In this document: piece after piece, positions 5,307-21,384 of the stretch
Position numbering within the stretch: the first letter of the stretch is position 1
How the letters are laid out: the number at the start of each line of letters is the position of its first letter
From: Pseudomonadota bacterium
GTDB lineage: Bacteria; Myxococcota; UBA9042; PHBI01
Length of the DNA stretch: 21,384 nt
Assembly: GCA_005772945.1 (NCBI GenBank)
Contig: SXIE01000193.1
Location: 1 to 21,384, forward strand
Direction of reading: 5' to 3'
Made by a program: the position numbers and the translations under genes
Notes under the pieces: model-generated
The model's input: only the letters and a program-made list of their open reading frames with translations
What the model was told of the DNA's origin: nothing
Database searches by the model: none

Positions 5307-6344
5307 TCAGAGCCGCGCGAACCCTCGCACGAACGCCGCGCGGATGCAGTTCGTGTCGGCCCCGCAGCCGAGGCTCGCTCGCGACGCCCCCGTGGCGCGC
5401 GCATACACCGTCTCGAGCGCCCAGGCGGCCAGGTGCTGCTGAACCTTGCGGTCGCGTGCAAGTGTCGTCGCGCTCCGCGACGGCGCCTGAAGACGCGTCA
5501 GGTGCTCGAGCACCAGCAACGCGCTCGTATCGAACGGGGCCGTCAGCCCGTACTGGACGAGCGCCTTCTCGCGCTCGTAGGGGACCGGATCCTCGAGGCG
5601 CTTCTGGAGTTCGTCCGCAGTGAAGGCGCGCGCGCAGTCGACCACCGTGCACGGCTGGACGAACAGGTCCCCCTCGGGGGCGAGCGTCGTGTCGAAGCCG
5701 CAGCTGCCGGTTCCCATCGCGCGCAGGCACTGGTCACTCGCATCGCAGGCCGATCCGACGCCGTTCTTGTCCAGGTCGAACTGGTCGTCGTTGAAGACGG
5801 TCGGGCAGTTGTCCTGGCCGTTGAGGACGCCGTCGTCGTCAATGTCGGCGTCGCAGGCATCGCCCTTCGGATCCCCGTCGACATTGCTCTGGTCGGCGTT
5901 GGCCGTACGCACGCAGTTGTCGCAGGCGTCGCCGATCCCGTCGGCATCGGCGTCGGCCTGGCCGGCCGCATGGTGGCTCGCGCCAAGGAGGATCGGGTTG
6001 GCGATGAGCGGGCAGTTGTCCTGGCTATTCGCGACCCCGTCCCCGTCGACGTCGGGATCGCAGTCGTCGCCGATCCCATCGACATCCAGATCCGCCTGCG
6101 CCGGATTGGCCGAGGCCGCGCAGTTGTCGCAGGCGTCGCCGAGGCCGTCCTGGTCCGCGTCCCACTGGGCCTGGTTCTTGGCCAGCTTGCAGTTGTCGCA
6201 GCCGTTGCCGACGCCGTCCACGTCCGCGTCGGCCTGATCCGGATTCGACACGTCGGGGCAGTTGTCGGCGGCATCGAGGACACCGTCGCCGTCGGGATCC
6301 TCGCAGGTGCCGCTCCAGTAGTCGGCGCTCTCGAGATGCTTCAT
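5307..6344 (-). CDS. Thrombospondin type 3 repeat protein, downstream half of a split protease gene
   Basis: A 345-codon frame made of about nine calcium-binding thrombospondin type 3 repeats (for example [27 protein letters not shown]) over roughly residues 12-220, then about 125 residues of unknown, helix-rich C-terminal domain with several Cys. Between repeats about halfway along there is an insertion ([10 protein letters not shown]) that interrupts the usual NPDQ spacing. The first possible ATG (6344) overlaps the stop of the upstream protease frame by four bases (ATGA). There is no signal peptide, although such repeats fold with calcium outside the cytoplasm, so an independent cytoplasmic protein makes little sense. 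I think this is the C-terminal part of the upstream lipoprotein protease, separated by a one-base deletion or a sequencing error. The alternative is genuine translational coupling of two genes. Confidence 0.75.
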
Positions 6345-8161
6345 GTTGGGTCGTCGCGCAGGACATACGGCAGCGAGTGGCGCTGATAGCGGTCGTAGCG
6401 ACCCGGGCAGTAGTCGCACGCGTCGCCCACCGCGTCGCCGTCGAAGTCCCCCTGGTCCTTGTTCCAGCCGAAGGGGCAGTTGTCTTTGAGATCCGGAACG
6501 CCGTCGCCGTCGGTGTCCTTCTTCCAGGACGCGGACGCCGGAATGGTGCTGAGGATCGCTCCGTCGGGTCCGCGCACGCCGGCGCTGACGCTCTTGATCA
6601 CCGTGTAGTGCGTCCACTCGGTGGCGAGCGTGCCCTTGGAGAATGCCGGGAGGAACAGCATGCGCTTGGTGCTCAGGGGCGCGACGGGGCTGCCCGAGGT
6701 ACCGGGCGTTCGGAGCACGACGAACTCGTCTTTGCCCTTGGTCGCTTGGTCGCTCTCGGTCGACTCACCGTGGCTGTTCTTGATGATGAAGTACTGCTCG
6801 TTGGCGTCGTTGACGGCGGCGAGGTAGCCGACCACGGCGACCTCGTGGTTCGACCAGAACTTGTAGAGCGTGCCGCCGAAGACCCGATCGGGCGCAGCGG
6901 CCTTCGCTGCGTCGCTCTGATCGGCGTCGACGAAGACGGCGTTGCCGGCCGAGTCGAGTTGGCCCAGCGGGGCCGGATCGACCCGCACGAAGGACCACTC
7001 GGGATTGCCGGCGTCGGCGTGGACGCGCGCGCCAGCGAGCCACCACTTGATCGTGGTCACCACCGGGTAACCGGCCTTCACGGCGGCTTTGACGAGGTCA
7101 TCGACCTGCTGATAATCGACCTCGATCGTGCCGTCCTGGAACCCCTTCGCCGTGCACGTCGTCTTCTGTTTCGTGCCGACGTCGAGGCACTGGTCGCCGA
7201 CGATCTTCTGCTCGCTGGCCGCCGAGACCACCAGCGCGCCCGCCGCGACCTCGACGGCCTCGGTGCACTGAGTGACGGCCTTGCCGGTCGTCAGGTTGGC
7301 GGCGTTCGAGCACGCCACGACCCCGCCGTTGCCGGCCGTGGACGGGAGATCGAGCCACAGCGACTCCGCCGAGAAGTTCTTGCTGGCGGGCCCGTACATG
7401 GTCTCGAGCATCGTGCCCATCTCGCCGCCGCTCCAGTCGTTGGGCTGGACGCCCGAGGGCGCGGCGGCGTGAAAGGCCATGTACGGAAAGGTACTTTCGA
7501 GCGTCGCCTGGTAGCAGTGGGGGAGGCCCGTGGGGCACGTTGTGCCGGTCTTCCAGCGCGTGTAGGCCGCGGCCTCGGCGAGATCGACCGGGCTGAAGGA
7601 CGCGTTCTGGCCGCCGAGTTGGTAGCCCGCGAGGGTCTCCATCGCGGTCAGCGCCGCATGCGTTTGGCACGTCCCGTAGCTGCCCTGTTGCTTCACGCGC
7701 GTCAGGCGATTGGCACCGTTGCACTGCCCGAGAAAGACCATCCAGTAGTCGCGGCTGGCGCCCGTTCCGTCGAGATCGAGCGTGACCTTTTCGGGCGCGC
7801 ACGCCTCGCCGCCGATGGCCGGCAGCGGCGACACGACCGGGGGCGCGGTGGGCGTGGCGGGCGACGCGAGGGTCAAGGCCGGCAGCTTCGCGACCGATCG
7901 GCTGAGCTTCTGGAGCTCGTATTCGAGCGAGCCCGGTAGCGTGCCCGACAGCTTCTGATTGATAGGCGAGATGAACGCCGGCGTCGCGCCCTCGCTGGCC
8001 GCGACCGCGCACCCCGCGGCGCTTGCCGTGCAATCGAAGGCGCTATAGGCGCTCGGCTGGTCGACGATTCCGAGAGGCGGGACGACCACGTCGGTACAGG
8101 CGATGAGGGGCAGCGCGGTCAGCGCGGCGAGGACGAAGTACGATCGCTCTTGCGGATCCAT
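6341..8161 (-). CDS. Papain-like (C1) lipoprotein protease with thrombospondin type 3 repeats
   Basis: A 606-residue exported cysteine protease. The signal peptide ends in a lipobox (LPLIAC, Cys22). A linker rich in Ser, Thr, Pro and Ala (about 90-120) precedes the peptidase domain. The papain active site is complete: oxyanion Gln159 and Cys165 in [10 protein letters not shown], with the same six-residue spacing as papain Gln19/Cys25; His439 in NHEVAVVGY; Asn462 in IIKNSHG. The usual Trp after the nucleophile and the paired Cys before it are replaced (SYGTCQT instead of SCGSCW). Two thrombospondin type 3 repeats ([18 protein letters not shown]) begin near residue 546 and the frame then stops abruptly at 6341. 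Repeats continue in the next frame downstream. The start at 8161 is supported by AGGGAG five bases upstream. Likely a surface-anchored, calcium-stabilised protease. Confidence 0.87.
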
Positions 8162-8186
8162 CGGTTCTCCCTGGGGCGTGATGAGG

Positions 8187-8210
8187 CGGGCGCGCGTCCG
8201 GGCGCGCGTC
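8187..8210. repeat. Perfect 12-base tandem direct repeat in a divergent intergenic region
   Basis: Two adjacent copies of CGGGCGCGCGTC lie 26 bases upstream of the protease start codon, in the 147-base gap shared with the divergent membrane-protein gene. It could be a regulator site, but a simple GC-rich duplication is as likely. Confidence 0.5.
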
Positions 8211-8308
8211 TCGTTCACCCGCGGCGCGGGGAAGAAGCGAAATCTGTTTGCGAGGAACGTCGCGCGCACGCGTGACGGGATGGCGGATCGGCCCGTAGAG
8301 TGGGAGGC

Positions 8309-8680
8309 ATGGATCCATGGCTCCTCTCCGCCGCCGCGCTGTCGCTTTTCACCGCCGGAGTGCACCTCTTCGCCGGCGGGGCCGCCGTTGCGCGCCCGCT
8401 CCTTGCGAGCCGCGAGCTCGATCCGGTCGTCAAGTACACCGCCTATTACTGTTGGCACCTCGTGTCGCTCGTGCTGGTGGCGATGCCGATCGGTTTCGGC
8501 GTGGGCGCGGTGCGCGAGGAGTCGCGCGAGCTCGCGGTGCTCATGACCGCGCTGGCCGCCGCGTTCGGGCTGTTGAGCGTGTGGCTCGTCGTCTGGACGC
8601 GGCTCGGGAAATGGCGGCTGCCGCAGTGGGCGCTGTTCGTGCCGATCGCGCTGCTCGGTGCGGTCGGGCTGTGGCGCTGA
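8309..8680 (+). CDS. Small four-helix membrane protein, function unknown
   Basis: A 123-residue protein that is almost entirely hydrophobic, with four predicted membrane helices (about 2-24, 43-64, 74-96 and 104-121). Polar residues that look conserved sit near the first two helices: AGVHLFAGG followed by ARPLL, and YYCWHLVSLVL. I recognise this as a small hypothetical inner-membrane protein type found in proteobacteria, but know no function for it. The ATG at 8309 is preferred; the GGGAGG before it ends only one base from the ATG, so ribosome binding is unusual. A GTG at 8300 would add three residues. It is divergent from the protease gene and convergent with the ABC permease, so it is probably transcribed alone. 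Confidence 0.75.
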   Translation: MDPWLLSAAALSLFTAGVHLFAGGAAVARPLLASRELDPVVKYTAYYCWHLVSLVLVAMPIGFGVGAVREESRELAVLMTALAAAFGLLSVWLVVWTRLGKWRLPQWALFVPIALLGAVGLWR

Positions 8681-8730
8681 CCGGAGACGTGCGCGTGCCG
8701 CGGGTCCAGGTCCAGTGATCCGGTGCCGCG

Positions 8731-8747
8731 GTGGCCCCTGCGGCCAC
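8731..8747. terminator. Candidate bidirectional terminator between convergent genes
   Basis: A perfect 6-base-pair stem GTGGCC/GGCCAC with loop CCTGC lies in the 74-base gap between the stops of the small membrane protein (+) and the ABC permease (-). The position fits a shared terminator, but there is no T run on either strand. Confidence 0.4.
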
Positions 8748-8754
8748 GCGTCGC

Positions 8755-9939
8755 CTACTCCTCCCAGCGAAAGCGCCAGGCGGCAAGCATCGCCAGCACC
8801 GCCGCGACGCCCAGCATGAGCGCGCTCGGAGCGAGCACCGCCTCGATTCCCTGGCCCCGCCACATGACGGCGTCGAGCCCGTCGACCGCCCAACGCGTCG
8901 GGATGAACTGCGTCACGGTCTGGAGCCAATCCGGCAGGATGAACGTCGGCACCCAGGCGCCGCCGAGCATCACCATCACCAGGATGACAAAGAGCCCGGC
9001 GCCGCGCGTGGCCTGCGGCGTCTTGCCCAGCGTCGACACGAAGACGCCGACCGAGGACGCCATCAGCGCGAACGTGAGCGACACGAGCCCGAGCCCGAGC
9101 AGGCTACCGTTGAGCTCGACGCCGAGGACGAAGCGCCCGAAGAGCACGAGGAACGCGAGCGTCATGAGCGCGATGATCGCCGAGCTGATGATGCGCGCCG
9201 TCAGTACGCGCGCGCGGCTGATCGGCGCCGTGCGAATGCGGCGCCAGAGCCCGCGCTGGCGCTCGGTGATGAGGATGACGGCGCTCTCGATCGCCGCCAT
9301 CAGGATGAACTGCACGGCCATGCCGGCGACGGCGTGACCGGCGCCGCTGTAGCGCTCGGTGGCCGCCGAGAGGGTGTCGACGCGGTAGGCCATATTCAGG
9401 TCGCCGCACGCGGCGAGGCGCGCCTTGACGGCGGGATCGGCCAGCGCGTCGACGATGCGGCTACGGATGAGACTGGCCGCGATGCCGGCGCCCGCGGGTG
9501 AGGTTGGATCGGTGATGAACACGACGGTAGCGAGGTCCGTCGGGGCCGCGGCCGCAGCGCCGGTGTCGGATCGACGCATTTTTTCGGCGAGGGCCGCGAT
9601 GGTGGTCTCGGCGAACCGCTTGGGCAAGACGAGCGCGAGGACGTTGTGGCCGCCGCGCACCGCCTCCTCAGCCTCCGCGCGCCCCATCGGCGTGGCCGTC
9701 AGCGCGGGATCGGCCTGCAGTGCCGCGACCAGGCGGCGCGAGCCCTCGCTCTGATCTTCGTCGCTGACGAGGATGGGGACGCGCAGCGCCTTGGGTCCAT
9801 CCCCTGAGCTGCGAAATGCGATCGACATGAAGGCCGCGAGCGCAGCCGGCAGCAAAAACGACAGGATGACGGCGCGCCGATCGGTCAGGTGAACGAGGAG
9901 GTCCTTGCGGACGATCGCGCGAATCGGTCGGAAGCTCAT
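8755..9939 (-). CDS. ABC-2 type transporter permease
   Basis: Membrane subunit of an ABC exporter, 394 residues. The layout is that of the ABC-2 family (DrrB/NatB/YhiH-like): an N-terminal amphipathic stretch (FRPIRAIVRKDLLVHL), a first helix at about 24-42, a long extracytoplasmic domain (about 45-215), then five helices, including one followed by the cytoplasmic sequence ITERQRGLWRRIRTAP that usually contacts the ATPase. The ATG at 9939 lies 13 bases after the stop of the ATPase gene; a GTG at 9972 would overlap that gene and is less likely. It works with the preceding ATPase to export or extrude a substrate (drug, lipid, sodium or polysaccharide) that cannot be identified. Confidence 0.9.
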   Translation of the reverse strand: MSFRPIRAIVRKDLLVHLTDRRAVILSFLLPAALAAFMSIAFRSSGDGPKALRVPILVSDEDQSEGSRRLVAALQADPALTATPMGRAEAEEAVRGGHNVLALVLPKRFAETTIAALAEKMRRSDTGAAAAAPTDLATVVFITDPTSPAGAGIAASLIRSRIVDALADPAVKARLAACGDLNMAYRVDTLSAATERYSGAGHAVAGMAVQFILMAAIESAVILITERQRGLWRRIRTAPISRARVLTARIISSAIIALMTLAFLVLFGRFVLGVELNGSLLGLGLVSLTFALMASSVGVFVSTLGKTPQATRGAGLFVILVMVMLGGAWVPTFILPDWLQTVTQFIPTRWAVDGLDAVMWRGQGIEAVLAPSALMLGVAAVLAMLAAWRFRWEE

Positions 9940-14123: not shown

Positions 14124-16274
14124 CTACCACTCCCGCAGCTTCGACGCGCGGAACAGCTTCCCTGCGTTGATGCACTCTTTCTCGGCCGCGAATTCGATGT
14201 CGTCCCAGGTGATCTTGTCGCGCCGCTCGGCCGCACGGTAGGCGGCCCGGACGACTGCGTTCTTGATGTTACCGCCGGCCAGCTCGAACGAGTCGGCGAG
14301 CGCCTCGTAGTCGATGTCCTCGGCGACGGGGCAGTCCTTCGGGACGAGCTTTTTCCAGATCAGGTGCCGGTGTTTCGCGTCCGGTTTCGGGAAGTCGATC
14401 TTGAACATGATGCGGCGGGCGAACGCGTCGTCGATGTTCTTGTCGAGGTTGGTGGTCATGATGACGACGCCCTCGAAGCGCTCGATCTCCTGCAGGAGCA
14501 GGTTCGTTTCCATGTTCGAGAAGCGGTCGATGGAGCTCTCGACGTTGGTCACGCGCTTGCCGAACAGCGAGTCGGCCTCGTCGAAGAGGAGCATGCAGTG
14601 GTTGGCGCGCGCGGAGGCGAAGATCTTCGAGAGGTTCTTCTCGGTCTCGCCGACGTACTTCGACACGATGCGCGGGATGCTGACCTGGTAGAGCTTCATG
14701 CCGAGCTCGGAGGCCAGGATCTCGGCGCACAGCGTCTTGCCCGTGCCGGGGTCGCCTTTGAAGAGGACGGTGATACCCTTGCCGGTCACGAGGCGCTTGC
14801 CGAAACCCCACTTCGTCATGACGAAGATGCGGTTACGGCAGGCGGTGAGGACCTCGCGGATCATCGCGATCTCGCGCTGCGGCAGGATCAGATCCTCGAG
14901 CGTCAGGTTGATGCGCGAACGCACCGAGAGGTCGTCCATGTTCGCGCGGATCTGCGCCTGCGCGCACGACTTCAGCAGAACGGTCGTGATGATCGGGTGG
15001 TCGGTTCCGGCGCGCACGCGTTGCTCGGCGAGCCCACAGGCGGCCGCGATCTGGCCGCCCGTCAGCTCGAAGCGCGTGCCGAGATCGTCGAGGTCGACCT
15101 CGGGGTGGATGGCGACGTCGCCCGGCATGTGCGTCTGCCAGATGCGCGTACGTTGATCGACGTCGGGCATCGCGAGCGTCAGCTGGAAGCCGACGTAGTG
15201 CTCGACGCTGGTGTCGATCTCGTCGGGGCGGTTCGAGGTGAAGATGACGAGCCCGCCGTGGCGCTCGAGCTGCGAGAGGAGCGGCGGGAGCTTCGCGTTG
15301 CCCTTGCTGACGAGGGACTCGCAGCGATCGAAGACGAGCACCGCGCCCTGCACGCGCGCCTCGGTGTAGAGGTCGGCGACGAGCAGGACGAAGCTGCGCG
15401 GATCGCCGGCGAGCGTCGCGCAGTCGACCACGATGAGCGGACGACGGAGCTCGAAGGCGAGCGCCTCGGCGAGCATCGATTTGCCGGTACCGGGCGTGCC
15501 GACGATCGCGATGGCGAGGCCGTTGGGGCCTACGAACGGGCCCGCATGCGGCGGGTTCGGGCTGAGCTGCGGGCGGCCGGAGGGGTTGGCGAAGTGGCGT
15601 AGGATCTGGCGCAGCTCGTCCATGTCCTCGCCGAGCAGCGCGACCTGGTCGAGCCGAACGACAGGGTCCTTGAGATCGGCGAACGCGCGCAGCGTGGCGT
15701 CGATACTGCGGCGGCAGAGGACAAAGTCGGCGAGCCGCTCCGGGACCTTGATTTCCTGGGCGAGCGCGCCGTCGCCCTTGGGCTCCTTGGCGCGCTCGAG
15801 CGAGGTCAGCTTGTGCTGGATGAGCTTCGAATCGGACGCGAAGTACCGCCGCGACTGAAGGCGCTCGACGCGGCTGCCGAAGAGGAGCTGGAGCGCGAGG
15901 TCGACGTCGACGAAGTCGAGCAAGATGTTGTTGTTGAAGCGCGCGAGGCGGCGCCGGAACGTCAGATCGAGCAGCGGCATGAGCGCCAGCTCGAGCACCT
16001 GGCGCTCGACGTCGTCGAGGTCGTGGGCTTGCGTCACGTCGTCCAGCGGGAAGGACCAGCCGTTCTGGGCGGCCTCGCCGCGCAGGCCCGCCATCTCCAT
16101 GTCGGACTCGAGCGCGCCCTGGCGGATATTGTCGACCGCCTGGTCGGCGTCCTCGGGGGAGAGGCCGCCGTGGCGCAGATGGATGGCGTGCTCGAGCAGC
16201 ATTTCCCAACGGCGCAGGATGCTGTCCATGAAGCGCGCGTTGAGCTGGATGAAGTCGGGATCGGTATAAAGCAC
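14124..16274 (-). CDS. Tandem AAA+ ATPase with degenerate first domain
   Basis: A 716-residue cytoplasmic protein with an N-terminal helical region (1-240) and two AAA+ domains. Domain 1 (about 250-400) has Walker A GTPGTGKS (259-266), but Walker B reads FDRCES (315-320) with Arg where the catalytic Glu should be, and the arginine-finger region has no Arg. Domain 2 (about 460-690) is intact: GDPGTGKT (507-514), FDEAD with Asp565/Glu566, sensor Asn609 and Arg620/Arg621. Domain 2 resembles the ATPases of contractile injection systems (Afp15-like) and CDC48-type remodellers. I chose GTG at 16274 because GGAGG lies seven bases upstream; longer frames to 16454 read through the intergenic region. 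It is divergent from the sigma-factor operon and may remodel one of its products, which is inference. Confidence 0.9.
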   Translation of the reverse strand: MLYTDPDFIQLNARFMDSILRRWEMLLEHAIHLRHGGLSPEDADQAVDNIRQGALESDMEMAGLRGEAAQNGWSFPLDDVTQAHDLDDVERQVLELALMPLLDLTFRRRLARFNNNILLDFVDVDLALQLLFGSRVERLQSRRYFASDSKLIQHKLTSLERAKEPKGDGALAQEIKVPERLADFVLCRRSIDATLRAFADLKDPVVRLDQVALLGEDMDELRQILRHFANPSGRPQLSPNPPHAGPFVGPNGLAIAIVGTPGTGKSMLAEALAFELRRPLIVVDCATLAGDPRSFVLLVADLYTEARVQGAVLVFDRCESLVSKGNAKLPPLLSQLERHGGLVIFTSNRPDEIDTSVEHYVGFQLTLAMPDVDQRTRIWQTHMPGDVAIHPEVDLDDLGTRFELTGGQIAAACGLAEQRVRAGTDHPIITTVLLKSCAQAQIRANMDDLSVRSRINLTLEDLILPQREIAMIREVLTACRNRIFVMTKWGFGKRLVTGKGITVLFKGDPGTGKTLCAEILASELGMKLYQVSIPRIVSKYVGETEKNLSKIFASARANHCMLLFDEADSLFGKRVTNVESSIDRFSNMETNLLLQEIERFEGVVIMTTNLDKNIDDAFARRIMFKIDFPKPDAKHRHLIWKKLVPKDCPVAEDIDYEALADSFELAGGNIKNAVVRAAYRAAERRDKITWDDIEFAAEKECINAGKLFRASKLREW

Positions 16275-16295
16275 CGCGGGGCCTCCAAGGGGGAC

Positions 16296-16325
16296 AGTCT
16301 GGCGGCCCGATCGGGAACCTGTCAA
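16296..16325 (-). promoter_or_regulatory. Predicted sigma-70-type promoter of the AAA+ ATPase gene
   Basis: A perfect TTGACA (16325-16320) is followed after 18 bases by CAGACT (16301-16296). Transcription would start near 16289, giving a leader of about 15 bases that just includes the GGAGG at 16286-16282. The -35 directly abuts the GGAACC element on the other strand. Confidence 0.45.
16314..16319 (+). promoter_or_regulatory. ECF-type -35 element upstream of the sigma-factor operon
   Basis: GGAACC, the common -35 core of ECF sigma promoters, lies 145 bases before the sigma gene and reads toward it. A -10 element at the right distance is not clear (GGTAGA at 16340-16345 is the nearest candidate). 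If real, the sigma factor may activate its own operon. Confidence 0.3.
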
Positions 16326-16426
16326 CGCGCGCCCTTCATGGTAGAGGGCGGGCGGTCCCTGCGCATTCTGCGGCCGCGTGGGCAGCCGCGAGGCGGCCTT
16401 CGCGAAACTTCGACGAACCACCGCCA

Positions 16427-16441
16427 GGTCCGGAAAGGACC
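16427..16441. repeat. Inverted repeat just upstream of the sigma-factor gene
   Basis: GGTCC-GGAAA-GGACC, five-base arms around a five-base spacer, ends 22 bases before the GTG start of the sigma gene. It could be an operator or a leader hairpin; its position in the 189-base divergent region is the only support. Confidence 0.35.
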
Positions 16442-16463
16442 ATCGCCCTAGCATTCGAGGACT

Positions 16464-17057
16464 GTGGGCAACGATCTTCTACGCGACGATGCGAAGTGCC
16501 GCGAGGCCTTTCGCAGGGGAGAACGATGGGCGATGGCGGCCGTGTACCGGAATTACGCGCCGTTGGCGTACACGATTGTGAGCCAAGGCTTCGGCGGTTT
16601 CCGCGGGTTCTTCGACCCCGTCTTGCGCGACGATGCGGTGCAGAACATCTTCGCGGCGGCCTTCGAGGAGCGCGCGCGGCTGGCCTATGACGGCATCCAG
16701 GACTACGCGCGCTTCTTGCGCGGGCTCGCGCAGAATATCTGCCGTCAGATGCTCGATCGCGGTCGCCGCTTCGCGCGGACGCCCGAGACCGAGGTGGCCG
16801 CGGTGCCGCAAGCAGAGCCGGATGCCGAGCTCGAGCTGATCGACGCTGAGGCCGAGAGCGTGTGCCGGAAGTTTCGCGAGAGCCTGAGCGACGCGACCGA
16901 GAAGGCGGTTTTGGCGCGGTATTTCACGGACGGCGAGGCCGAGGAGACGCTCGCCGAGGCGTTGTCGCTGACGCGCTATCGCCTGCGGAAGGTGATCGCC
17001 GACGTGCGAAAGAAGATGACGCGCTATCTCAAGGAGCACGGCATCGATGGGACCTGA
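16464..17057 (+). CDS. RNA polymerase sigma factor, ECF-like
   Basis: A 197-residue sigma-70 family protein with only regions 2 and 4, as in ECF sigma factors. Region 2 spans about 14-102 (LRDDAVQNIFAAAFEERARL and ARFLRGLAQNICRQMLDRGRR correspond to the core-binding and -10-recognition helices). An acidic linker rich in Glu and Asp (108-130) follows. Region 4 is about 131-192, with the helix-turn-helix at ETLAEALSLTRYRLRKVIADV. The sequence is divergent, so region 4 might recognise an unusual -35. The GTG start has GAGG three bases upstream; no better in-frame start exists before Met24. It is the first gene of a five-gene overlapping operon and overlaps the next gene by 11 bases, which suggests that the membrane protein next to it controls its activity. 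Confidence 0.85.
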   Translation: MGNDLLRDDAKCREAFRRGERWAMAAVYRNYAPLAYTIVSQGFGGFRGFFDPVLRDDAVQNIFAAAFEERARLAYDGIQDYARFLRGLAQNICRQMLDRGRRFARTPETEVAAVPQAEPDAELELIDAEAESVCRKFRESLSDATEKAVLARYFTDGEAEETLAEALSLTRYRLRKVIADVRKKMTRYLKEHGIDGT

Positions 17058-18042
17058 GGGCCATGCATCTCGCGAAGGCCGCGAAGCGGCTGCCCGCGAT
17101 GGCCGCCAAGCGCCACCCCGACGGGCCGTGGCGCTGACGCGTCGCTACCTCGACCCGGCCAAGGCCTGGCGCGCCGAGGACGAGCGGGCGCTGCGCACGG
17201 CACTACGGGAATCGACGGCCGCGGCCGCGCACCATCGGGCGCAGATCGTGCGCCATCGGCTCATGACGGGGGGCGCGAGCGGGGTCCCGAGCGGCTTCGA
17301 GCTGCGCCGGATGGGCGACGCGGCGGTCGCGGTGGCGCTCGGCGGCAGGGTCGCGGATCCGGCGAAGCAGCGGGCGTGGCGCGGGCTGTGGGCGCTGGTA
17401 GGCGCGCTGGGAGCGGCCGCGCTCGTGGTCTTTGCGACGCGGCCCGCTGGGGTCGATGTGCATGGGGATGTGAACGACGATCACATTCAGGCGCGCGGGC
17501 TCGGCGACGGGGCTTGGCCCGAGGAACGGGTCGGCTTGGGGATCGGCGGCGTGACGGCCGACGGCGGCGAGTACGAGGCGATCGCGACGGCGCAGCTCTA
17601 CGCGGACGACTGGTTGCGCCTGACCTACACGAACGAGAAGTCGGAGCTCGGCTGGCTCTTCGTCGTGGCGCTGCAGCCCGATCGGGCGCCCGGCGAGCGC
17701 GTCGTCTGGATCGCGCCGACCCCCGAGGAAGGCCAGAGCCTGGCCATCACCGTGACGCGCTACAAGCCGCTGCCGTTCGAGGTGCGCGTCGGGGCGCGGC
17801 ATATCGTCGGCAAGACGCGCTTCGTGGCAATCTTCACGACCCGGGCACGCACGCTCTCCGAAGTCGGCGCGGCGCTCGACGCTGCGAGCGATACCGCGCT
17901 ACCATCCGAGGTCGCTGGGCGCGAGTTCGCCGCGAGCGTCGGAAGCCGCCTGGGGCTGGGCCCCGAGGAGGTCGTGCAGGTGATCGACACGCGCATCGTC
18001 GCTGGAACCGCCGCCGATCACGGCATCGAGGCGCCCCGATGA
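17047..18042 (+). CDS. Single-pass membrane protein, possible anti-sigma or sigma-linked sensor
   Basis: A 331-residue protein with a basic cytoplasmic N-terminal part (1-110), one membrane helix (about 111-131) and a 200-residue extracytoplasmic part. That part contains a beta-rich segment (LRLTYTNEKSELGWLFVVAL, then VVWIAPTPEEGQSLAITV) that recalls domains often attached to anti-sigma or caspase-linked regulators (DUF4384-like), but the match is weak. No anti-sigma zinc motif (HxxxCxxC) is present. It overlaps the sigma gene by 11 bases and the caspase-like gene by four. The ATG at 17047 has AAGGAG ten bases upstream inside the sigma gene; a GTG at 17128 is an alternative start. A role as membrane partner that holds or senses for the sigma factor is inferred from position and topology only. 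Confidence 0.72.
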   Translation: MGPEGHASREGREAAARDGRQAPPRRAVALTRRYLDPAKAWRAEDERALRTALRESTAAAAHHRAQIVRHRLMTGGASGVPSGFELRRMGDAAVAVALGGRVADPAKQRAWRGLWALVGALGAAALVVFATRPAGVDVHGDVNDDHIQARGLGDGAWPEERVGLGIGGVTADGGEYEAIATAQLYADDWLRLTYTNEKSELGWLFVVALQPDRAPGERVVWIAPTPEEGQSLAITVTRYKPLPFEVRVGARHIVGKTRFVAIFTTRARTLSEVGAALDAASDTALPSEVAGREFAASVGSRLGLGPEEVVQVIDTRIVAGTAADHGIEAPR

Positions 18043-19583
18043 TGGTTCGCGTCGCGCTGGCGATGGCTATCTGGGCGGCTCTTAGCGCCTCCGCACATGC
18101 GGCCGATCGGCGCTTTGCGCTCGTTATCGGCTGGAACCGCTCGGACGATCCGCAGCTCGCGCCGCTGCGCTATGCCGACGACGACGCGCTGCGCGACCAC
18201 GAGGTCCTCGCGGCCATCAGCGAGAAGGCCTTCGTCTTTACCGAGATGGACGACGAGACGGCGGGACTCCTCGGCGAGCGGCACGTCGCGGCGCCCACGC
18301 GCGCCCGCGTCCTCGACGCGCTCCAAGAGCTGCGCGGGGCCATGGCGCGCGCCAAACAGGCCGGCGACCGGCCCATCCTCTGCTTCGTCTACTCGGGCCA
18401 CGGCAGCGTCGACGCCGAGGGTCGCGGCTACGTCTACCTCGCGGACGGGCGCTTCACGGCGCGCGACCTCTTCGGGCGCGTGCTCGCGCCGACCGCCGAC
18501 GACACGGTCATCCTCATGATCGACGCCTGCAATGCGGCCCTCATGGTCAACGGCCGCGGCGCCCCCGCCGAGCGACGACCGGTCGGCGCCTCGCGCCTCG
18601 ACCTCGCCGACTACCCGAATGTCGGCGTCATCTTGGCGAGTAGCTCGCTCGGCGAGACGCACGAATGGGGCCGCTATCTGGCCGGCATCTTCAGCCACGA
18701 GGTGCGCTCGGGGCTCCTCGGCGCGGCCGATCTGGACGACGATCAACAGATCACCTTCGCCGAGCTCGCGGCCTTCGTCTCGTCGGCCAACGCGCGCGTC
18801 AAGAACCCGACCATCCGCGTGACGCCGTATATCCGGCCGCCGCTGACCGACCCCAACATCGCGATCGTCGACCTGGCGCGCGGCCGCTTCCGCGCGAAAC
18901 TTCGCATCGATCGCACGATCGCCGGCAAGGCCCACGTCGTCGACGAGGACCTCGTGCGCTACGCCGACTTCCATCGCACGGCCGGGAGCCCCGCCTTCTG
19001 GCTTGCCCTCACGCGCCCTGGCGAGGCCACCCTCGTCGCCGACGAGGCCGAGTGGGTCGTCCCGGCGAAGGCCAACGGTGAGCTCGCGCTCGCCGCGCTC
19101 GAGAAGCGCGCGCGCGGCAAGCTCTCCGCACGCGGCCCGGGCTCGGAGTACTTCGATCGCACGCTCTTCCACCAGGCCTTCGACCTGCCCTACGCCGAGA
19201 AATACCTGACGCTCGACTACCTCGGCGACCTCACGCTCGAGCGCTTCATCCAAGCGCCCTGGTACGACAACGACACGGCCTGGGTGACGCTCGGCGCCGG
19301 GCTCGCGGCGACCGCGGCCGGCATCGGCATGCAGGTCCACGCGTACGCGCTCGCCAGCGACGCCGAGAGCGCCCCCTGGGCCGACCAGCGCCGCCGCCTC
19401 AATGGCGACATCGGCACCTACCAGACCGGCGCCGCCATCCTTTATGGGGTCGGCGGGGCCGCCGCGCTGACCGGGATCCTGCTCTTCGTCCTCGACCCCC
19501 ACCCCGCTCGCATCGAGTCGTGGCGACCGCCGCTGGGGATCGAGCTGATCAGCAACGGCGTGCGCCTCCGGACGGGGTTTTGA
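18039..19583 (+). CDS. Exported caspase-like (C14) peptidase with C-terminal membrane helices
   Basis: A 514-residue protein. A signal peptide (about 1-22, ending SAHA) sends it out of the cytoplasm. The caspase-hemoglobinase domain (about 25-270) starts with RRFALVIGWN and PLRYADDDALRDHEVL, as in bacterial metacaspases and caspase family proteins. The catalytic pair is present: His121 in YSGHGS and Cys164 in MIDACNA. Inside the domain, residues 231-242 (DLDDDQQITFAE) form an EF-hand-like loop with only the central Gly replaced by Gln. A region of unknown fold (270-405) and two membrane helices (about 411-433 and 462-486) follow. The ATG overlaps the previous stop by four bases; a second ATG follows directly. 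Metacaspases cut after Arg or Lys and often need calcium; the substrate here is unknown, and the neighbouring envelope lipoproteins are candidates. Confidence 0.88.
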   Translation: MMVRVALAMAIWAALSASAHAADRRFALVIGWNRSDDPQLAPLRYADDDALRDHEVLAAISEKAFVFTEMDDETAGLLGERHVAAPTRARVLDALQELRGAMARAKQAGDRPILCFVYSGHGSVDAEGRGYVYLADGRFTARDLFGRVLAPTADDTVILMIDACNAALMVNGRGAPAERRPVGASRLDLADYPNVGVILASSSLGETHEWGRYLAGIFSHEVRSGLLGAADLDDDQQITFAELAAFVSSANARVKNPTIRVTPYIRPPLTDPNIAIVDLARGRFRAKLRIDRTIAGKAHVVDEDLVRYADFHRTAGSPAFWLALTRPGEATLVADEAEWVVPAKANGELALAALEKRARGKLSARGPGSEYFDRTLFHQAFDLPYAEKYLTLDYLGDLTLERFIQAPWYDNDTAWVTLGAGLAATAAGIGMQVHAYALASDAESAPWADQRRRLNGDIGTYQTGAAILYGVGGAAALTGILLFVLDPHPARIESWRPPLGIELISNGVRLRTGF

Positions 19584-20029
19584 TGCGGAGGACCTCGACC
19601 CGTACGGGCGCCGGTACTGCCCGCGGATGGCTTGCGGTGATGTTTGTCGCCGCGGCCGCCGTTGCGATTGGGGCCTGCGCCCAGCCGGCCCCAATCGAGG
19701 GCGCGGGCTGCAACGAGGCGCATCCGTGCCCGAGCGGCTACGACTGCGAGGGCCAGCGCTGCTACCGCTTCCAGCCGGCACGCTGGCATTGTGACGCTGA
19801 TTCACAGTGCCCGCTCGGCCGCTGCAATCACGCGCGGGTCTGCGGCTGCGAAGACGACGGCGACTGCAACGGCTCGAGCTGCCTTCAGTCCGGCCCCTTC
19901 AAGTACCAGTGCGGCTGTGCGAGCGACGCGGAGTGCCCCAGCGGCGCGTGCCTTGCGACGGGCGCCTGCCAAAAGAGCGACGAAGCGACGACGGCACCGG
20001 AAGGGACGACCGGAGGTGCGGGCCCATGA
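19583..20029 (+). CDS. Small Cys-rich lipoprotein
   Basis: A 148-residue predicted lipoprotein. The N-terminus has a charged stretch, a hydrophobic core (LAVMFVAAAAVAIG) and a lipobox Cys32. The mature part has many Cys in short units of the form DxxCPxGxCxxxxxC (for example CNEAHPCPSGYDCEGQRC, CASDAECPSGACLATGAC), which look disulfide-bonded and are common in myxobacterial surface proteins. The end (SDEATTAPEGTTGGAGP) is low complexity. The start codon overlaps the caspase-like stop by one base (TGATG). Its role is unknown; position suggests it is an envelope partner or target of the same system. Confidence 0.78.
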   Translation: MRRTSTRTGAGTARGWLAVMFVAAAAVAIGACAQPAPIEGAGCNEAHPCPSGYDCEGQRCYRFQPARWHCDADSQCPLGRCNHARVCGCEDDGDCNGSSCLQSGPFKYQCGCASDAECPSGACLATGACQKSDEATTAPEGTTGGAGP

Positions 20030-21384
20030 CATCGCGCATCACGATCGCGTTCGTCGCGCTGCTGTCCGTGGCCGCATGCCATGACAACGGGCGCGATCCG
20101 GCGCTCGGCCGCCCGGTCGACTCGGCGGCCTCCGCGCTGGCTTGCGAAGCCGATCTCAGCTGCCCGCACGGCGGCATCTGCGACCCGCGCTCGCTGCGCT
20201 GCGTCGAGTGCATGGACGACGTCGACTGCGCTCCGGGCCACTGCGACGTCGCGCGCCACGCGTGCGTGCAATGCGTCGCCGACGGCGACTGCGCGAGCGG
20301 CCGCTGCCACCCGTCTCTCGCCGTGTGCGTCGGGTGCGCGAGCGACGCCGAGTGCGGCGGGGGGCTCTGCGATCCGCGGACCTTCGCGTGCGTCGGCTGT
20401 CTGCCGGAGCTCGCGGGGATCTGCGGCACGGGCGCTTGCGATCCGGCGACGCTCACCTGCGTGGGCGGCTGCTTGAACGACGCCCAATGCGACGACGGCG
20501 CGCCCTGCACGCGCGATCACTGCGCGCCTCCGGAGGGCGAGGGCGAGACCGGCTGCGTTCACGAGGCGATCAGCGACGGCGCGTGTTGCGCCCCGGCCGC
20601 CTGTGGTGCGGGCGCGAGCGCCTTCGACGCCGACGGCGATCGCTGCCGCGAGAGCTGCCGCTGTAACGACGGCACGCTGGTCGACGTCGGCGCCGCCTGC
20701 TGCGCGCCGTTCACATGCGCGGACCTGGGGCGCCCGATCGACACGAACGCCGACGGCTGCGCGGACGCCTGCGACTTGTGCGAGCCGCCGACGTGCTTCG
20801 AGGGACAAGCGCCGACCGACGCGGACCACGACGGCTGCCCCGACACGTGCCCCGGGTGCCCGAGCCCCGTGTGCACCGGCGGGCAGCCGCTCGACACGAA
20901 CGACGACGGCTGCGCCGAGTCGTGCATGTGCCCGACCGGCGCGCTCGCGGGACCCGACGGGCAATGCGCCTGCCCGACGAAGCTGACCTGCGCGGGCGCT
21001 TTGGTCGCGTCGGATCTCGACGGGGACGGCTGCCCGGACCGCTGCACGCGCCCGTGCACGACCTCGTGTGACTGCCAGGCGCAGGGCCTCGTGTCCGAGG
21101 TCCCGTGCGCGTTTCCGTGCCCGACCTGCGGGCCTTGGCTCGCGTGCGACGCTGGCGCGTGCGTCGGACAATGCGACTTCGTTCCGCCCGAGGCCGGCCA
21201 GTGCGCCTGCCCTGCCCCGCCGGTGTGCGGCCCGGGCGAGCTCGCGATCGACACCACCGGCGACGGCTGCAGCGACAGCTGCGCGTGCGCGAAGGGCCCG
21301 AGCGACCCGAGCGGTGCCGACTGCGCGTGCACGGCCAGCGTCGCCTGCGCGGCGGGCGCGAGCCCGGTCGACCTGGACGGCGAC
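20026..21384 (+). CDS. Cys-rich lipoprotein with repeated Asp/Cys loops (C-terminus off window)
   Basis: At least 453 codons, still open at the right edge. It has a lipoprotein signal (MTSRITIAFVALLSVAAC, lipobox Cys18). Two repeat types follow. The first, about residues 40-160, has units such as CMDDVDCAPGHCDVARHACV, like the neighbouring small lipoprotein. The second, from about residue 190 to the edge, has units of 30-60 residues built around DTNxDGCxDxC (IDTNADGCADAC, TDADHDGCPDTC, LDTNDDGCAESC, SDLDGDGCPDRC, IDTTGDGCSDSC), with Cys inside an otherwise calcium-loop-like motif. The ATG overlaps the previous stop by four bases (ATGA) and has GGAGG nine bases upstream. Probably a large disulfide- and metal-stabilised surface protein; no catalytic domain is visible. 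Confidence 0.8.
   Translation, partial: MTSRITIAFVALLSVAACHDNGRDPALGRPVDSAASALACEADLSCPHGGICDPRSLRCVECMDDVDCAPGHCDVARHACVQCVADGDCASGRCHPSLAVCVGCASDAECGGGLCDPRTFACVGCLPELAGICGTGACDPATLTCVGGCLNDAQCDDGAPCTRDHCAPPEGEGETGCVHEAISDGACCAPAACGAGASAFDADGDRCRESCRCNDGTLVDVGAACCAPFTCADLGRPIDTNADGCADACDLCEPPTCFEGQAPTDADHDGCPDTCPGCPSPVCTGGQPLDTNDDGCAESCMCPTGALAGPDGQCACPTKLTCAGALVASDLDGDGCPDRCTRPCTTSCDCQAQGLVSEVPCAFPCPTCGPWLACDAGACVGQCDFVPPEAGQCACPAPPVCGPGELAIDTTGDGCSDSCACAKGPSDPSGADCACTASVACAAGASPVDLDGD

Follow-up and report, generated by a model that had tools for sequence, protein, structure and literature searches.

A caspase-like peptidase gene linked to an ECF sigma factor and a probable membrane anti-sigma factor: a candidate envelope signaling switch in Myxococcota

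The role of bacterial caspase homologues is a long-open question, often framed in terms of programmed cell death. In the RseA/DegS/RseP pathway, an extracytoplasmic function (ECF) sigma factor is held by a single-pass anti-sigma factor whose first, or site-1, cleavage takes place outside the membrane. Caspase-fold proteins have also been placed beside sigma factors. Sections of a 2012 survey describe metacaspase operons that include a sigma-70 gene in Myxococcus xanthus, Anaeromyxobacter, Haliangium and Sorangium, and also in Ralstonia and Fibrobacter, and count four such operons in M. xanthus DK 1622 (Asplund-Samuelsson et al., 2012; PMC3501461). In the CASP/Craspase systems of type III-E CRISPR (clustered regularly interspaced short palindromic repeats) loci, which involve Csx29 TPR-CHAT, Csx30 and CASP-sigma, a caspase-like peptidase cuts the inhibitor of an ECF-like sigma factor, as part of another paper describes (PMC10028731), and an excerpt on ECF54 proposes that a caspase-superfamily neighbor controls the sigma factor (PMC8999054). 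The locus analyzed here lies on contig SXIE01000193.1 of a bacterium assigned to Myxococcota (assembly GCA_005772945.1; positions 1 to 21,384, hereafter the window). It carries a string of five genes for an ECF sigma factor, a single-pass membrane protein, a C14 caspase-like peptidase and two Cys-rich lipoproteins (Table 1). We consider it fairly probable that this operon is a cell-surface transcription switch in which the membrane protein, an anti-sigma factor, is cut by the caspase-like peptidase acting as site-1 protease.

A first-pass annotation, made from the sequence alone, had known of no described system with this set. That claim needs correcting, as the operons recorded in 2012 are probably of the same kind, to judge from their description of a sigma-70 gene beside a metacaspase gene (PMC3501461). 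The word "anti-sigma" is absent from the main text of that paper, and its pertinent passages mention no cut site, promoter or lipoprotein regulon (PMC3501461). A literature search among open-licence papers likewise found no report of the anti-sigma identity, the cut site or the regulon. The sigma-metacaspase association is already known, and what is proposed as new is an anti-sigma pathway with an exported caspase homologue as its site-1 protease.

The layout is conserved well beyond the window. All five open reading frames (ORFs) were verified there, and their coordinates overlap by 11, 4, 1 and 4 bases at the junctions, as the first-pass annotation had it. Relatives of the caspase are abundant (579 proteins at expectation value E ≤0.001 among 7995 candidates scored), and the membrane protein is fast-evolving (5 matches in the protein search). 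A first set of 64 loci, numbered with the prefix L, was obtained by a scan of collected genomes whose sole queries were two short caspase patterns, neighbors being ignored. Eight loci with <0.9 kb of upstream DNA were excluded (L002, L009, L012, L032, L034, L054, L061 and L064), the next smallest upstream stretch being 1.4 kb. A sigma gene adjoins the caspase gene in 55 of the 56 testable loci and lies upstream on the same strand in 51 of the 56. The sigma gene of L013 lies 2.35 kb upstream of the caspase gene with further frames in between, sigma and anti-sigma genes are divergent and directly beside the caspase gene in L019 and L029, and the order in L033 is anti-sigma, caspase, sigma. In L060, a sigma-like frame overlaps the caspase frame and no anti-sigma was recovered, and L011 is the sole testable locus of the 56 to have no sigma gene. 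Across the window and the 64 loci, the sigma model gave 57 matches at E <1e-3 within 2.6 kb upstream of the caspase gene (matches, not loci, on either strand) and one elsewhere in 712 kb, namely the L033 gene just downstream of its caspase. Two weaker matches (E 0.0014 and 0.0022) lie elsewhere in the loci. The sigma-caspase layout is not a product of chance. Among 50 frames extracted between sigma and caspase genes, each with one strong hydrophobic segment (window included), a start codon giving a 4-base overlap is possible at 31 junctions of the sigma and membrane-protein genes and at 32 junctions of the membrane-protein and caspase genes. As side observations, L010 (4779-11758) holds two sigma, anti-sigma, caspase modules back to back, and the caspase of L011 (9896-11497), with neither sigma nor anti-sigma match nearby, belongs to the same assembly as the module-bearing L018.

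Two further samples extend the first. Among 377 genomes from the phylum of the L003 genome, with four candidates scored per genome, 40 matched at E 1e-40. Together with places fetched by hand, this second set came to 59 loci, 27 repeating the first set and 32 new. A sigma gene lies upstream in all 30 testable new loci, L081 and L110 having too little DNA; the two sets taken together contain no pair of near-identical caspase genes, and some members are paralogues of one genome. In the reverse direction, the window sigma factor was searched against 58 genomes and matched 73 places in 40 of them. Forty of these places were sampled, 20 stronger (mostly one per genome) and 20 weaker, and the caspase model matched in 23 of the 40 pieces (16 of the stronger and 7 of the weaker). 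Two pieces revisit known loci: L221 repeats L027, and L229 is the L033 locus, cut so that its caspase is not included. The misses among the stronger 20 are L203 and L207, with no caspase in the piece, L204, where the contig ends, and L205, where an anti-sigma with its candidate site is present and little DNA extends beyond the sigma gene. Weaker sigma relatives often lie away from caspase genes. The possibility raised with the first-pass annotation, that homologues of these genes would mostly be found apart in relatives, was not borne out for the stronger sigma relatives.

The three core proteins can be assigned with differing directness. The window sigma factor has no sigma-type Pfam match of its own, and its best NCBI family, TIGR02937 (E 1.1e-7), falls below the cut-off. 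The family profile recovers ECF sigma factors of solved structure (best E 7.2e-29), and in Pfam region 2 is found in 16 of 22 family members and region 4 (PF04545) in 13 of 22, the window protein showing neither. These family matches place the window protein among the ECF sigma factors, as a divergent member. The membrane protein and both lipoproteins have no family match above cut-off in Pfam or the NCBI families. In the membrane protein's family, zf-HC2 is detected at E 0.01 in 18 of 54 aligned members, and HxxxCxxC precedes the membrane segment in 50 of the 90 proteins described below. The motif is missing from the window, L001, L002, L003, L005, L006 and L007 and kept in L004 and L008. AlphaFold models the window protein with helices within residues 9-97, a membrane helix at 105-131 and a beta domain from 162, the predicted local distance difference test score (pLDDT) being <50 at 135-150. 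Its place beside the sigma gene, its single membrane segment and the zinc finger in part of its family indicate that the protein is very probably an anti-sigma factor whose window member has lost the zinc finger. The single-pass regulator proposed in the first-pass annotation is supported in this respect.

The peptidase passes the curated cut-off of Pfam PF00656 (25.5 vs 21.4 bits). H121 and C164 are present in 214 of 214 alignment rows, and the Peptidase_C14 match with this His-Cys dyad places it in family C14. The caspase profile found no match at 0.01 among PDB sequences, and a fold search returned metacaspases and MALT1 among the closest solved folds, pointing to a p20-type fold. D49 and D162 are invariant in the alignment and may contribute to an acidic S1 pocket. 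A signal-like N terminus and two C-terminal hydrophobic segments recur in 97 of 120 homologues, in keeping with the exported, membrane-anchored enzyme of the first-pass annotation. Two positions in the protein are candidate self-cut sites. The R173 column is basic in 213 of 213 rows (204 R, 9 K; 217-row alignment), residues 172-179 having pLDDT <50, and the R365 column is basic in 214 of 214 (192 R, 22 K) and followed by G in 204 of the 214.

The residue that ties peptidase to anti-sigma lies in the linker of the latter. In an alignment of 54 rows (the window, 48 loci and 5 protein matches, three of these >80% identical to the window), the column of window residue R150 is basic in every member (R 44, K 10) and is the sole column basic throughout, the next best reaching 80%. 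R150 ends the segment that AlphaFold predicts to be disordered, just outside the membrane. As linkers align poorly, an alignment-free test was applied to 90 proteins, comprising the window, the 48 alignment loci, 32 second-set loci and nine further first-set middle frames taken from exception loci and cut loci; membrane-segment starts were set by hand in L081, L115, L034 and L054. A permissive pattern occurs ≤60 residues after the membrane segment in 83 of the 90, against a mean of 21.4 and a maximum of 34 in 200 shuffles, and a tight F-x-A-R/K-G/S-type motif in 73 (shuffles: mean 6.5, maximum 14). The permissive pattern is found in 25 proteins over the next 60 residues and in 8 over the 60 before the membrane, and the seven proteins missing it still have a basic residue at the site, by reading. 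Controls came from 30 zf-HC2 loci, of which 7 dropped out for lack of a suitable frame and 12 for lack of a membrane segment; five of the remaining 11 proteins matched the permissive pattern. One of these, L186, proved to be a module member and was dropped, leaving ten proteins from five genomes (G005-G009) of nine searched, with the permissive pattern in 4/10 and the tight motif in 0/10.

The site recurs in the other samples. Among second-set anti-sigmas, R or K occupies it in 30 of 32 rows aligned with --keeplength, and the two misplaced rows, L108 and L112, read TARG and VGVRG. Caspase-linked anti-sigmas of the reverse set are also basic there, by reading, and L197, where a caspase is present, gave no anti-sigma match; most anti-sigmas of sets 2 and 3 were chosen using a model in which this column is included, which makes these counts slightly circular. 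Agreement between Arg and Lys across the sites was tried as proof of co-evolution and is not significant once relatedness is allowed for (quick tree, 97 rows, L108 and L112 set to R by hand), leaving a hint only. Characterized C14 peptidases other than caspases cleave after Arg or Lys, according to part of a published account (PMC5756287), and the conserved linker residue suggests where such a cut would be expected.

The two lipoproteins, which carry lipobox-like IGAC and VAAC stretches, bear on what else the peptidase might do. Homologues of the first lie directly downstream of the caspase gene in close relatives, and the second has Myxo_Cys_RPT repeats that score below cut-off. In the window clade, 10 of 11 members have a Cys-rich frame after the caspase, the exception being L006, with only 0.48 kb of DNA. 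In many other relatives the caspase is followed by a CPC..CC lipoprotein, then repeat or propeller-like parts, and in others by unrelated genes, such as an enoyl-CoA hydratase gene in L114. A housekeeping site-1 protease could free the sigma factor, the caspase being only one of the products of the operon and processing surface proteins after their synthesis, the Cys-rich lipoproteins for instance. The overlap of caspase and lipoprotein genes in one string, the neighboring compartments predicted for their products and the recurrence of the Cys-rich frame in the window clade would fit such a role. We nevertheless think it unlikely, as many relatives have sigma, anti-sigma and caspase genes with no Cys-rich neighbor, and the tight motif prevalent in anti-sigma linkers was found 2 times against 2.29 expected in 13 Cys-rich proteins of the clade. 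Of the two kinds of substrate suggested by the first-pass annotation, the regulator is favored by its predicted linker site, and lipoproteins bearing the same cut site are unsupported.

Promoter sequences suggest another part for these lipoproteins. A TTC(G/A)ACGA-N16-GAAA-like sequence lies upstream of the sigma gene in the window clade (the window and seven loci, spacing by eye). It is distinct in the window, L001, L003, L004 and L006 and weaker in L005, L007 and L008; the predicted pattern has one match in the window and none in 100 shuffles of it. In one sister clade, TCGTCC-N17-CGTT precedes the sigma gene in 11 different loci, a slightly looser pattern being expected 0.89 times over all 75 regions at its rate across the available loci. 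Over nine whole genomes, the sister-clade pattern TTCGTCCA-N16-CGTT has 24 matches vs 3 for a reversed control, and the window-clade pattern has 16 vs 2 over six; removal of the sigma sites that defined the patterns (7 of 24 and 4 of 16) leaves 17 vs 3 and 12 vs 2. By reading, ten of the 17 sister-clade sites precede exported lipoprotein-like frames (four with CPC..CC), one precedes another exported frame and six nothing convincing. The 12 window-clade sites comprise five before lipoproteins, one before a further sigma gene (in the L002 genome) and six before nothing convincing. Because the cut-like motif is not enriched in them and the shared promoter sequence precedes such genes, the Cys-rich lipoproteins seem better explained as sigma-factor outputs than as substrates of the same type of cut. 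As a side observation, L141, L158 and L161 encode small exported Cys-rich proteins downstream of predicted promoters, and L141 and L161 share a KP(I/V)(I/V)EC stretch, possibly marking a secreted peptide family.

The conserved Arg/Lys might instead be a docking residue, or a membrane-proximal structural residue of the anti-sigma, and no cut site. Nearby residues are conserved too, an F preceding the site and a G or S following it, much as a short binding motif would show. We regard this as distinctly improbable, since the site closes a stretch with pLDDT <50, its distance from the membrane varies (4 to 42 residues after the transmembrane window), both Arg and Lys occur, and the linker of one anti-sigma (L039, 8976-9974) contains it several times over, a 12-residue unit with an F-(R/L)-V-K-S site being tandemly repeated about five times. 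That the caspase executes developmental cell death or autolysis, its production merely timed by sigma and anti-sigma, is very improbable: part of the 2012 survey raises such a role as conceivable for M. xanthus metacaspases (PMC3501461) and a predicted autoregulated promoter would raise caspase levels, but the signal-like and membrane segments assign the enzyme to the envelope, the promoter pattern is found before lipoprotein genes as well, and a death function has no need of a conserved basic linker site in the anti-sigma.

In the proteolytic switch that we favor, the single-pass anti-sigma would keep the ECF sigma factor at the inner membrane, and the peptidase would share a compartment with the outer domain of the anti-sigma. 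A surface signal would lead the peptidase to mature, probably by self-cutting after R173 and R365, and the mature enzyme would cleave the disordered linker of the anti-sigma following R150. As for RseA, intramembrane and cytoplasmic proteases of general function may then complete sigma release, and the freed sigma factor would transcribe both the operon that encodes it and genes for exported lipoproteins, which are often Cys-rich. More tentatively, and at somewhat under an even chance, this may be a widespread self-contained switch built on an envelope-anchored caspase-fold zymogen, with two self-cuts and an anti-sigma cut whose Arg/Lys sites drift together, each of several paralogous modules per genome turning one surface signal into expression of Cys-rich surface lipoproteins. 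If that held, an entire family of bacterial caspase homologues would gain a physiological substrate, down to the residue.

Table 1. Coordinates of the features discussed, in window positions.
Feature	Positions	Strand	Basis or description
Predicted autoregulated promoter	16409..16436	+	TTCGACGA (16409-16416), 16 bases, GAAA (16433-16436)
ECF sigma factor	16464..17057	+	GTG start; ORF, family profile
Probable membrane anti-sigma factor	17047..18042	+	Family alignment, zf-HC2, HxxxCxxC, AlphaFold
Predicted anti-sigma layout	membrane helix about 17359-17439		Cytoplasmic helical domain, one transmembrane helix, disordered linker, periplasmic beta domain
Candidate caspase cut site IQAR|G	17485..17499	+	R150 codon 17494-17496, juxtamembrane linker
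C14 caspase-like peptidase	18039..19583	+	N-terminal signal-like segment, H121, C164, two predicted C-terminal membrane helices
Catalytic residues	H121 18399-18401, C164 18528-18530	+	Alignment
Candidate self-cut site R173-G174	18555..18560	+	Disordered loop nine residues past the catalytic Cys
Candidate self-cut site R365-G366	19131..19136	+	Between catalytic part and membrane helices
Cys-rich lipoprotein 1	19583..20029	+	17 Cys in 148 amino acids
Cys-rich lipoprotein 2	20026..21384	+	69 Cys in the available 452 amino acids; open at window end

Genes near the string were also considered as members. Upstream of the sigma gene and divergent from it (window 14124-16454) is the gene of an AAA+ ATPase that has CDC48-like matches and whose co-occurrence had been raised with the first-pass annotation. 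It was rejected as a module member, being present among the 64 first-set loci only in L001, the closest relative. The two ATPases are 78% identical, and because their similarity starts at residue 57 the true start probably lies within the called frame, which would leave room for the sigma promoter. A kinase was rejected as well, kinase-like matches lying near ≤8 loci with weak to moderate scores. Elsewhere in the window (5307-8929), what by eye looks like an exported papain-like peptidase is followed by many Asp-rich DxDxDG repeats.

Compared with described systems, the locus combines familiar parts in a different way. An ECF sigma gene followed by one for a single-pass anti-sigma, with a proposed first cut outside the membrane, resembles RseA/DegS/RseP, a comparison drawn in part from PMC10028731. 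The site-1 protease of the RseA pathway is a trypsin-fold serine protease, whereas the candidate here is a caspase-fold cysteine peptidase encoded in the same gene string. Craspase is activated by RNA with Cas7-11, whereas the window enzyme has export and membrane segments; it has no TPR or CHAT match in Pfam, where PF00656 alone passes its cut-off. The neighbors of ECF54 are CHAT proteins, subtilases or carboxypeptidases, and an excerpt cites this group for control without an anti-sigma factor (PMC8999054), whereas the window set seems to have one. Orthocaspases and metacaspases of family C14 share the p20-type fold and His-Cys dyad, but the signal-like N terminus and C-terminal hydrophobic segments set the present family apart. 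Gene order and a conserved residue tie this large caspase family to one candidate substrate, the neighboring anti-sigma factor. If the proposed cleavage is real, bacterial caspase-fold proteases would serve as envelope-signaling proteases, convergent with both DegS-RseA and the CRISPR Craspase.

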